Positions 8,792 to 10,610 of a stretch of DNA of 13,529 bases are shown here, piece by piece. Every line of letters begins with the position of its first letter. Position 1 is the first letter of the stretch. Under the pieces are notes generated by a model. It searched no databases, was not told the DNA's origin, and was given only the letters and a program-made list of their open reading frames with translations. The stretch comes from Clostridia bacterium BRH_c25 (GTDB lineage Bacteria > Bacillota_A > Clostridia > Lutisporales > Lutisporaceae). A program made the translations under genes and the position numbers. Where the stretch lies: the NCBI GenBank assembly GCA_001515955.1, contig LOES01000080.1, positions 1-13,529 of the forward strand, read 5' to 3'.

Positions 8792-9562
8792 TCACCTCAG
8801 CAGCTTCTGCATTCCGGTATGGTCTATGTAGTAATTATCCTTATATATCAGCTCCGAAACCGGTACTACCTTGTACCCCTCCTTCTGCAGGTTATCAAGT
8901 ACTATAGGCAGTGCATCCTTTGTATAGGTTGCATTGTTATGAAACAGTACAATTGAGCCATTTTTGACCTTTGAAAGTACTCTTTTTACTATTGAATCAG
9001 CTCCATAATCCTTATAGTCCAGAGAATCCACGTCCCACTGTATGACCTGTATTCCCAGTCCTCTTGAGGTCTCTATCAGCCTATTGTTATAGTCTCCGAA
9101 AGGCGGGCGGAATAGAGTAACCTTTTTATTTGTTATCGCTTCAATTTTGTCCGAAGTCTTTGAAAGCTCCTCTATAATCTGTTCCTTTGACAGCTGAGAC
9201 ATATGAGGATGCTTCGAAGAGTGATTTCCTATCTCATGACCTTCTTCATCTATTCTCTTTACCATCTCCGGGTATTTATCCACCCAGAATCCCACAAGGA
9301 AAAAGGTGGTCTTCACATCATACTTCTTGAGGATTGTAAGCAGGTCCTCGGTATAATCGGCCCCCCAGGCTGCATCAAAGGAAATGGCGACCTTTTTTTC
9401 AGATGTATCCACACAGTATATAGGCAGCTCCCTGCTGTTGTTCCTAAATACATTCAGCAGCTGGTTATAGCCTGCATAATTGAATATAATGGAAATGCCG
9501 ACTATCAACATCACCAGCATTACTTTCTTTGTATAGTGGTTATTCTTCAATCCAAGCTTCAC
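8792..9562 (-). CDS. Sporulation-type polysaccharide deacetylase (PdaB/YlxY-like, NodB domain)
   Basis: The protein has 256 residues, starts with GTG 6 nt after GGAGG, and has one N-terminal membrane anchor (about residues 13-31), so the enzyme works outside the cell or in the forespore envelope. NodB motifs in order: SFDAAWG (catalytic-base Asp D63; the second Asp of the usual TFDDG is Ala, as in PdaB-type proteins where the position is also non-Asp); HSSKHPH (zinc ligands H114, H118); LFRPPFGDYN; QWDVDSLDY; and IVLFHN. The family removes N-acetyl groups from peptidoglycan or related sugars. The relatives in Bacillus act in sporulation. It has its own terminator and a sporulation-sigma-like -10 element upstream. 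PdaB and YlxY cannot be told apart with certainty by eye, so no symbol is given. Confidence 0.9.
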   Translation of the reverse strand: MKLGLKNNHYTKKVMLVMLIVGISIIFNYAGYNQLLNVFRNNSRELPIYCVDTSEKKVAISFDAAWGADYTEDLLTILKKYDVKTTFFLVGFWVDKYPEMVKRIDEEGHEIGNHSSKHPHMSQLSKEQIIEELSKTSDKIEAITNKKVTLFRPPFGDYNNRLIETSRGLGIQVIQWDVDSLDYKDYGADSIVKRVLSKVKNGSIVLFHNNATYTKDALPIVLDNLQKEGYKVVPVSELIYKDNYYIDHTGMQKLLR

Positions 9563-9616
9563 GTCGCACCTCCAAAATCAATCTTATATAAATAATTTAT
9601 TCAGATGACTCAGAAG

Positions 9617-9625
9617 TAGAATATG
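9617..9625 (-). promoter_or_regulatory. Sigma-E/sigma-K-like -10 element before the deacetylase
   Basis: CATATTCTA fits CATAnnnTA, the -10 pattern shared by mother-cell sporulation sigma factors, about 54 nt before the GTG start. An AT-rich ATAATA lies 14-15 nt upstream where a sigma-E -35 would be. Such short matches are common by chance in AT-rich DNA; the sporulation gene behind it raises the odds. Confidence 0.3.
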
Positions 9626-9683
9626 ATACAGGTTGATTTATTATTATTCCATCAGGCTGCTTTCACATAAACAAAACAAACGA

Positions 9684-9722
9684 CATATTTTGCGCGAAAT
9701 TTTAATTTCGCGTCATATTTTG
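9684..9722. repeat. 20-bp palindrome flanked by 9-bp direct repeats
   Basis: CGCGAAATT (9693-9701) and AATTTCGCG (9704-9712) are exact reverse complements around TT. On each side stands the same CATATTTTG (9684-9692 and 9714-9722). The element lies between the structured RNA's terminator and the deacetylase promoter. No T-run follows, so it is not an intrinsic terminator; a protein-binding site or remnant of a small mobile palindrome is possible. Confidence 0.55.
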
Positions 9723-9735
9723 TAATATTAGCTGC

Positions 9736-9772
9736 AAAAAAACAGGAGCTTATGCTCCTTTTTGCTTTTTTT
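9736..9772 (-). terminator. Rho-independent terminator after the structured RNA (possibly bidirectional)
   Basis: AGGAGC and GCTCCT (9744-9749, 9754-9759) form a 6-bp stem with a 4-nt loop. On the minus strand a seven-T run follows one base later. On the plus strand two T-runs follow as well, but no plus-strand gene lies upstream to be ended. It sits just behind the multi-helix RNA at 9775-9877 and so either ends that transcript or forms the switching part of an attenuator. Confidence 0.75.
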
Positions 9773-9774
9773 AT

Positions 9775-9877
9775 GGACACCCACTTCATCGTACCGCTAT
9801 TCTGAAACAGCAGTACCGGCCTTGCCGTATTGGCTGCCGCCGAGTGGCAACAGCACCAAGCTCCTCCATGAGTGTCC
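9775..9877 (-). ncRNA. Unidentified multi-helix structured RNA (candidate riboswitch, attenuator or small RNA)
   Basis: Read on the minus strand, the segment folds into a closed multi-branch structure. P1: GGACACTCAT (9877-9868) with GTGGGTGTCC (9784-9775), 10 pairs. P2: GCTGTTGCC, loop ACTC, GGCGGCAGC (9854-9833), 9 pairs, plus TTG/CAA at its base. A short CGGC-AAG-GCCG stem (9827-9817). P3: GTACTGCTGT, loop TTCAGA, ATAGCGGTAC (9816-9791), 10 pairs. Six of these pairs are G-U on this strand and would be A-C mismatches on the other, which argues that the minus strand is transcribed. An intrinsic terminator follows directly. It lies in a stretch without plausible proteins (9563-9901), 25 nt after the 57-residue gene and about 210 nt before the deacetylase start. 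I do not recognise it as SRP RNA, 6S, T-box or any riboswitch class I can recall. Confidence 0.55.
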
Positions 9878-9901
9878 AAGCTTCTTATTCTCAATCATTC
9901 A

Positions 9902-10075
9902 TCACGTTATGATTGTATGTATCAGCTCAATTACTTCTCTTGGAGTAAACCTTGCATAGTTTACCAGCAAAAGTGCTGCCAGTGCTATAGCAACCAACCT
10001 GATCAATGTTGAGAATGTAAGGGTGTTTATCACTTTAAACACGTTCTGCGATGTTATCTTGCAACTGCGTTTCAT
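9902..10075 (-). CDS. Small single-pass membrane protein, 57 residues
   Basis: I do not recognise this protein. A basic, polar N-terminus (MKRSCKITSQNVFKV) is followed by one hydrophobic segment, about residues 20-41 (core LIRLVAIALAALLLV), then a charged tail (RFTPREVIELIHTIIT). An AAAGGAGGG ribosome site lies upstream, though its 14-nt spacing to the ATG is long; no other in-frame start fits. A TATAAT promoter overlapped by a palindrome lies 45-75 nt upstream, and the structured RNA begins 24 nt after the stop. The positive-inside pattern suggests the N-terminus stays in the cytoplasm. It may be a small regulatory membrane peptide or, less likely, a toxin-like peptide paired with the downstream RNA; neither is shown. 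Confidence 0.6.
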   Translation of the reverse strand: MKRSCKITSQNVFKVINTLTFSTLIRLVAIALAALLLVNYARFTPREVIELIHTIIT

Positions 10076-10118
10076 AGTGACTTTTTTTCCCTCCTTTCAC
10101 ACCAGGCCGGGAGGTGCT

Positions 10119-10150
10119 TAAACAAGTAGACACTTGTTTATTATATTATA
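10119..10150 (-). promoter_or_regulatory. Promoter with overlapping 22-bp palindromic operator
   Basis: TATAAT occurs twice in overlap on the minus strand (10150-10145 and 10145-10140), with a poor -35 (TTCCAA) 17 nt upstream. Immediately downstream TAAACAAGT and ACTTGTTTA form a perfect 9+9 bp palindrome around AGAC (10119-10140), covering the expected transcription start. This is the classic place for a repressor; size and spacing suit a TetR-type dimer. No regulator gene is in the window. The -10 is followed by the 57-residue gene and the structured RNA. Confidence 0.5.
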
Positions 10151-10223
10151 CCTCCTAATTATTTCCTTTGGAAGAGGGTAAAGACCTATTTTTCTGAGAC
10201 TTTATTACCATTTATTAACATTT

Positions 10224-10610
10224 TCAATAGAATATCCAATTCAATATGATTCCTACAATGAGAGGCAGAAAAAGATACATCAATATAATCCATACAATGC
10301 TTTTCCTTTTTATTTCATATCTCTCAGCTGCTTTTATTACCTCTTCTCCGCCGGTTTCCTCCGGCATATCCAATACTTCAGAATTCAGAAGTCCCTCTGC
10401 CAGCTCGAGAGCCCCCTCCGGAACAAACAGATCAATACCATAACGGGACATCCCCATGTACACCTGCAGATAACCCCCTGCCTCTTTATGCTTCCTCTGG
10501 ACAGGTATACCTTCCGTACCGAGAACCGATTCCACCAGGACAGCTTCCTGTTCATTAGCCACATTCCTCACAAAAGCCCAGCCGTTCATGCTCTTGTTAT
10601 CCATTGCCAT
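10224..10610 (-). CDS. DUF2007-like protein with C-terminal membrane anchor
   Basis: The protein has 128 residues; the ATG is preceded by AGGAGAG at good spacing. The first 75 or so residues look like the DUF2007 (putative signal-transducing) fold: FVRNVANEQEAVLVESVLG, then GIPVQRKH, and LFVPEGALELAEGLL. A charged linker follows, then a hydrophobic segment at about 104-126 (SIVWIILMYLFLPLIVG) anchors the protein in the membrane. DUF2007 domains resemble small ligand- or protein-binding modules related to the PII-like fold, and their role is not known. It lies behind mnmM on the same strand but is separated from it by 209 bp holding a MITE-like repeat, so it may be transcribed separately. Confidence 0.7.
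   Translation of the reverse strand: MAMDNKSMNGWAFVRNVANEQEAVLVESVLGTEGIPVQRKHKEAGGYLQVYMGMSRYGIDLFVPEGALELAEGLLNSEVLDMPEETGGEEVIKAAERYEIKRKSIVWIILMYLFLPLIVGIILNWIFY

Follow-up and report, generated by a model that had tools for sequence, protein, structure and literature searches.

The window considered here, the whole analysed stretch of 13,529 nucleotides (positions 1-13,529 of contig LOES01000080.1 of Clostridia bacterium BRH_c25), carries on its minus strand, one behind the other, a 57-codon ORF, a structured RNA element, an intrinsic terminator and a polysaccharide deacetylase gene (Table 1). Further upstream lies a 128-codon ORF (10224-10610), to which Pfam assigns no family; a counterpart with 72% identity is present in locus L084, and none was found between the same neighbours in L090 (genome G001) or L092 (genome G003).

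Table 1. Features of the locus in window coordinates
Feature	Position	Strand	Remarks
Conserved block AAAATGGTAATAAAGTC...AAAATAG	10183..10220	-	Columns T11 to C48 of a four-sequence alignment, most of them invariant; the presumed promoter follows downstream
-10-like TATAAT	10145..10150	-	Aligned in 4/4 rows
5' hairpin AAACAAG/CUUGUUU	10119..10140	-	Presumed leader fold, or operator palindrome
Leader block	10085..10118	-	Shine-Dalgarno GGAGG and an upstream CCUCC able to pair
57-codon ORF	9902..10075	-	Ends 24 nt upstream of the RNA; no Pfam family
Structured RNA element	9775..9877	-	Closing stem P1 and two arms forming a three-way junction
P1, 5' strand	9868..9877	-	Partner 9775-9784; 10 pairs, 98% of cells paired (n = 5 sequences)
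Arm 1 hairpin	9833..9854	-	Both sides changed in 3/7 hairpin pairs and 1/4 lower-arm pairs
Arm 2 hairpin	9791..9816	-	Both sides changed in 3/10 consensus pairs
Intrinsic terminator hairpin and U run	9744..9759	-	Separated from the element by 15 nt; resembles a terminator on the plus strand as well
Block TATTCTACTT...TGAATA	9595..9623	-	Upstream of the deacetylase; invariant in 6/6 aligned loci, including L002
Polysaccharide deacetylase gene (PF01522)	8792..9562	-	Neighbour, outside the element

A conserved three-armed RNA fold

On the minus strand, positions 9775-9877 reach an MFE of -48.6 kcal/mol (z -3.81), which 1 of 200 dinucleotide shuffles matches, whereas the plus strand folds much more weakly (MFE -30.9, z -1.64, 12 of 200 shuffles as good). 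The minus-strand structure consists of a 10-bp closing stem and hairpins of 9, 11 and 4 bp, the 9-bp hairpin having one isolated pair beneath it; a hand count gives six G-U pairs, with each of the three long stems contributing two. The original prediction had drawn an RNA at these coordinates, and its closing stem and 9-bp hairpin are reproduced (the other long hairpin has 11 bp); its six G-U pairs and the directional fold read from them agree with the difference between the strands in the comparison with dinucleotide shuffles that it had suggested. The small hairpin it described is present in the MFE of the window as the 4-bp hairpin and absent from the five-sequence consensus, in which the first arm instead extends downwards, its GCN/NGC and GG/CC pairs separated by internal loops rich in purines.

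The search for relatives covered the best 80 of 217 loci on genome contigs that carry the neighbouring deacetylase gene. Comparison of the RNA with these loci by blastn revealed three relatives, L001, L003 and L004, which are close to one another, and a covariance model (R1) built from them and the window added a fourth, L084 on genome G007. All four keep the outer stem and the two arms. The elements are 100, 101, 101, 103 and 103 nt long and differ by single-base indels; these speak against a coding segment, and conservation as an ORF, the alternative named in the original prediction, was rejected for the element on that ground.

In the model-fitted alignment of all five sequences, which leans toward a structure itself derived from four of them, 97.0% of cells pair. 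Both sides have changed in 7 of 33 consensus pairs, a count attained by 1 of 500 shuffles (shuffled mean 3.5), further pair types amount to 24 (shuffled mean 20.1; 13 of 500 shuffles), and the covariation score is 0.376, where shuffles average 0.242 and 0 of 500 do as well, falling to 0.103 or less when the structure is slid by 1 to 3 columns. The MAFFT alignment, which is not fitted to the structure, has both sides changed in 8 of 35 pairs; covarying pairs in homologues, whose absence the original prediction had named as a refutation, are seen in both alignments. P1 contains no pair changed on both sides; apart from one pair that is broken in L004 it varies on one side, and its support therefore comes from U-A to U-G and similar exchanges. 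Folded singly, L084 (z -4.30), L001 (z -3.69) and L003 (z -3.11) are stable, whereas L004, with its broken P1 pair, folds weakly (z -1.52; 16 of 200 shuffles). Three motifs outside the long stems, AAUA, GGAGG and AGGCCGGU, show no change across the five sequences. The element is a genuine, conserved three-armed RNA fold, with support that is good but, at five sequences, shallow.

No family of Rfam 15 reaches its gathering score anywhere in the window, in keeping with the earlier failure to match the fold to a known class. A permissive scan of 9580-10230 (E<=5) yielded three weak matches far below their thresholds, none covering the element and two of them overlapping just its last 18 and 11 bases. 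Among the four relatives, Rfam at E<=1 gave two unrelated sub-threshold matches: Leu_leader (L084 1455-1530, 30.6 of 50 bits), which covers the terminator and also the element's 3' third, and, outside the element, RAGATH-23 (L081 439-516). Searches of plasmid and phage records with 9740-9900 (blastn) and of viral contigs with the ORF profile returned no match. A limited literature search (Lutisporaceae, riboswitches of Lutispora and wider topics) brought up no such locus, the sources covered being a narrow basis for calling it unpublished. A comparable orphan is the structured RNA candidate Clostridiales-1 (RF01699), named in PMC2864571: like the present element, it is a conserved folded RNA of undefined role in a restricted group; unlike it, the present element has no Rfam model at threshold and is preceded by a small ORF in 5/5 loci.

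A small ORF and a seemingly constrained message

The original prediction had seen no believable protein in this stretch. This was wrong: the conserved 57-codon ORF lies directly upstream of the RNA on the same strand. Pfam has no family for it; among 5.8 billion proteins, a single-sequence search found 14 relatives (14 of 14 candidates) and a profile search 16 (7989 candidates scored), 15 of the 16 being 81-93% identical over the matched part and the remaining one (P0016) 55%. Within the class, ORF matches at E<=0.1 occur in 42 of 391 genomes, four of which are the known ones; in six weak-match loci (L098-L103), regular expressions applied to frames of <130 residues detected no LVNYAKFTP-type motif. 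The predicted model of the protein consists of helices 4-40 and 45-56 (mean pLDDT 71.5, pTM 0.40), and its Kyte-Doolittle maximum is a mean of 2.29 over 19 residues. Because of this hydrophobic stretch and the helix model, the product is read as a probable single-pass membrane protein, with a first helix hydrophobic enough to span the membrane.

Pairwise comparisons with the window give dN of 0.06-0.09, dS of 0.40-0.58 and dN/dS of about 0.10-0.21, and third positions hold 46 of the 73 pairwise differences. The four comparisons share the window and are hence non-independent; they cover 51 (G001), 27 (G002), 39 (G003) and 57 (G007) codons. Judged by this coding signature in the compared sequences, the ORF is a small protein under selection. 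At about 497-506 of L004 (G003) the ORF contains a one-base deletion causing a frameshift, which may be real or an assembly error.

Constraint extends to the synonymous sites of the ORF, clearly so in two of the four comparisons. In G001, 3 of 21 fourfold sites have changed in the ORF versus 91 of 149 in the deacetylase and methylase (one-sided Fisher p 5e-5), and in G007 5 of 23 versus 78 of 152 in the same two genes (one-sided Fisher p 0.007); G002 is marginal (3 of 11 versus 51 of 84, deacetylase only; p 0.04) and G003 not significant (5 of 17 versus 53 of 107; p 0.10). The 128-codon ORF (17/33 fourfold sites in G007) was kept out of the comparison pool. The leader contains 34 consecutive bases that are invariant in four sequences (columns A113 to A146). 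Together, the fourfold constraint and the invariant leader suggest that selection acts on the message as RNA, seemingly from leader through tail.

The presumed promoter of this message includes the aligned -10-like motif. In L084, TATAAT is preceded by TTGACT at 16 nt and scores 11/12 in the promoter scan; the scan of the window finds no minus-strand promoter that uses 10145-10150. The conserved block at 10183-10220 is a possible regulator site. The predicted leader fold pairs the Shine-Dalgarno sequence, yet it is no better than that of shuffles (z -0.57). A 7-base pairing between leader and 3' domain, AGGCCGG with CCGGCCU, was dropped, being equalled by 278 of 2000 shuffles; in duplex energy, 317 of 500 single-base shuffles do as well as leader and 3' domain.

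Distribution, terminators and the downstream gene

The family set and the order set comprise one and the same 22 genomes, 4 of which contain the RNA at E<=0.001. Stricter filters applied to 391 genomes of the class returned the same four and one weak match (G099, E 0.29); the 30 genomes of other loci contained no RNA (10 of them belong to the 22, and the class sample includes some of the rest); and model R2, run against 398 genomes of the phylum, returned G001 and weak matches in G715, G637 and G737 (E 0.003 to 0.095 per genome). The matches in G099, G715, G637 and G737 were rejected as chance because many pairs are broken or parts of the model skipped, and because they sit within long open frames of 537, 704, 729 and 233 codons. 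Known occurrences of the element are thus confined to a small group of uncultured Clostridia, the taxonomy of which is tentative: record P0011 names a Lutisporaceae bacterium and L004 'Gracilibacteraceae'.

At convincing E-values, RNA and ORF are found in the same 4 of the 22 genomes of the order. In 5/5 loci the ORF is followed by the RNA on one strand at a distance of 23-24 nt (the ORF of L003 is cut by the contig end and that of L004 frameshifted); L002 contains the flanking methylase and deacetylase and lacks both ORF and RNA at the site. A conserved fold shortly behind the stop codon, on the same strand and with a constant partner, as is characteristic of structured 3' UTR elements, is thus present at all five loci.

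The terminator that had been placed right behind the element is indeed there in the window, and L084 has a counterpart at 1456-1485, equally 15 nt behind the RNA. Such a terminator-like hairpin directly behind the RNA is confined to these two of the five loci; L001 and L003 have one 83 and 75 nt downstream of the RNA, its U run being weak, and the terminator scan finds none behind the RNA in L004. Another hairpin, of the type GCGCGAAAT...ATTTCGCGC, precedes the deacetylase in the window (9692-9713), L001 (4888-4921) and L003 (304-337); similar sequence is aligned in L002 and L004, not in L084.

The deacetylase is the next gene in 4/5 loci. In L084 the RNA is followed by a convergent gene of the YcxB family (915-1454), with the terminator on the RNA's strand between them, so that the position of a co-directional leader fits four loci and fails in this one. 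The invariant block at 9595-9623 is possibly the deacetylase's own promoter. Given the convergent gene in L084 and the upstream block that the deacetylase retains in L002, where the RNA is absent, the deacetylase is, on this comparison of loci, not a likely target of the RNA; the riboswitch or attenuator considered in the original prediction is not supported as a control of this gene. In genome G006, the deacetylase gene is split, with residues 1-68 on one contig and 58-256 on another (contigs C122 and C210; L013 142-2176), and the 58-256 part lies directly behind a recombinase gene (Pfam Recombinase, Zn_ribbon_recom and Resolvase). The arrangement presumably resembles a skin-like element inside a sporulation gene.

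Possible roles of the RNA

The best explanation, in which we have about even confidence, is that 9775-9877 is the 3' folded domain of a small-protein mRNA and acts on that mRNA. It builds on the fold and its conservation, the coding signature of the ORF, the constant order of ORF and RNA and the extra synonymous constraint; the single transcript, its start, the membrane location of the product and each regulatory step are what we infer from there. The locus could function in the following manner: A minus-strand transcript of about 400 nt would start near 10140, with a leader able to mask the Shine-Dalgarno site, and would encode a 57-aa protein, probably of the membrane. The message would end in the 100-nt three-way-junction domain, followed in the window by the terminator. 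The domain would act within its own message, most likely by setting its lifetime or translation; the conserved junction and purine-rich internal loops may mediate this as a binding site for a protein, for the ribosome or for a small molecule. Control from the 3' UTR is described as unusual for bacteria in the survey of Weinberg et al. 2010 (PMC2864571). The same survey presents the L17 downstream element, a structured RNA in a potential 3' UTR that follows the gene for ribosomal protein L17. The present RNA shares this potential 3' UTR location, often without an annotated gene directly behind in the case of the L17 element (PMC2864571); unlike that element, it follows an orphan small ORF and has no Rfam model at threshold.

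The main rival, possible although we consider it rather unlikely, is a dual-function RNA: the transcript would encode the small protein, and its 3' domain, either intact or cut off, would act in trans, with a protein or other RNAs as its targets. The conserved sequence of junction and internal loops, the terminator that follows the RNA closely in both L084 and the window, and the constraint on the ORF beyond the protein level would all suit such an RNA. However, much of the invariant sequence is located in the junctions and internal loops that the consensus defines, and not in a long free strand, and the 3' end is ambiguous in L001, L003 and L004. Since RNA and ORF occur side by side in the same genomes, the free small RNA suggested in the original prediction is conceivable mainly as such a domain of the ORF transcript. 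The SR1 RNA of Bacillus subtilis, a dual-function RNA encoding SR1P, is described in PMC8501984; what it has in common with the present locus is a Gram-positive host and a short RNA containing a small ORF (PMC8501984). Unlike SR1, the ORF here is followed by a conserved three-way junction, and the two are likened by description, not by sequence.

Returning to action of the 3' domain on its own message, the three-way junction might constitute a new sensor (aptamer) or a catalytic RNA at the message's 3' end, a version that we regard as doubtful. If it were true, binding or cutting would set how much of a new small membrane protein is made, which would amount to riboswitch-like control from the 3' end in bacteria.

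The mRNAs of type I toxins (hok-like) encode a small hydrophobic protein in a strongly folded message, and both traits recur here. A locus of this kind, in which the message of a small hydrophobic toxin would be silenced by self-folding together with an antisense RNA, appears improbable. The predicted hydrophobic helix of the small protein, the Shine-Dalgarno sequence paired in the predicted leader fold, the constraint on synonymous sites and the patchy presence would be expected of it; in contrast to hok-like mRNAs, however, no antisense RNA is evident and no antisense promoter stands out (plus-strand promoter-like sites in the window and L084 all score 9/12), the 7-base match between leader and 3' domain is of the kind that shuffled sequences often reach, and the ORF matches no family in Pfam, whose toxin families were the ones searched. 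A plain protective 3' stem of the mRNA with no specific partner is quite improbable as well: the message has a strong closing stem close to its end, which would serve that purpose, but the three invariant motifs outside the long stems exceed what protection needs.

The poorest case is that for a riboswitch or attenuator of the deacetylase gene. Apart from the position of that gene, it could draw on a junction segment complementary to the 3' arm of the terminator over 8 bases in the window and 7 in L084, in the same register and with one covarying position, a pairing found after several had been examined and longer than most shuffles produce, being equalled by 51 of 5000 (window) and 262 of 5000 (L084) single-base shuffles. 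It is very unlikely, as forcing this antiterminator pairing costs 11.3 and 27.1 kcal/mol (window and L084), the pairing would need the complete terminator first, the junction segment of L001, L003 and L004 has no complement of >4 bases in the 120 nt downstream, and the convergent gene of L084 and the deacetylase's own upstream block stand against it as well; uphill in energy and absent in 3/5 loci, the pairing was set aside as a weak rival only.

With the RNA taken as the 3' domain of a small-protein message, the general reach of the finding is lowered by its having been seen so far in one little-known clostridial group. The locus nevertheless joins, in one compact unit, a nearly invariant leader with a folded RNA and a small-protein family that are unmatched in Rfam and Pfam, respectively, and this unit could be transferred to a laboratory host and dissected there.
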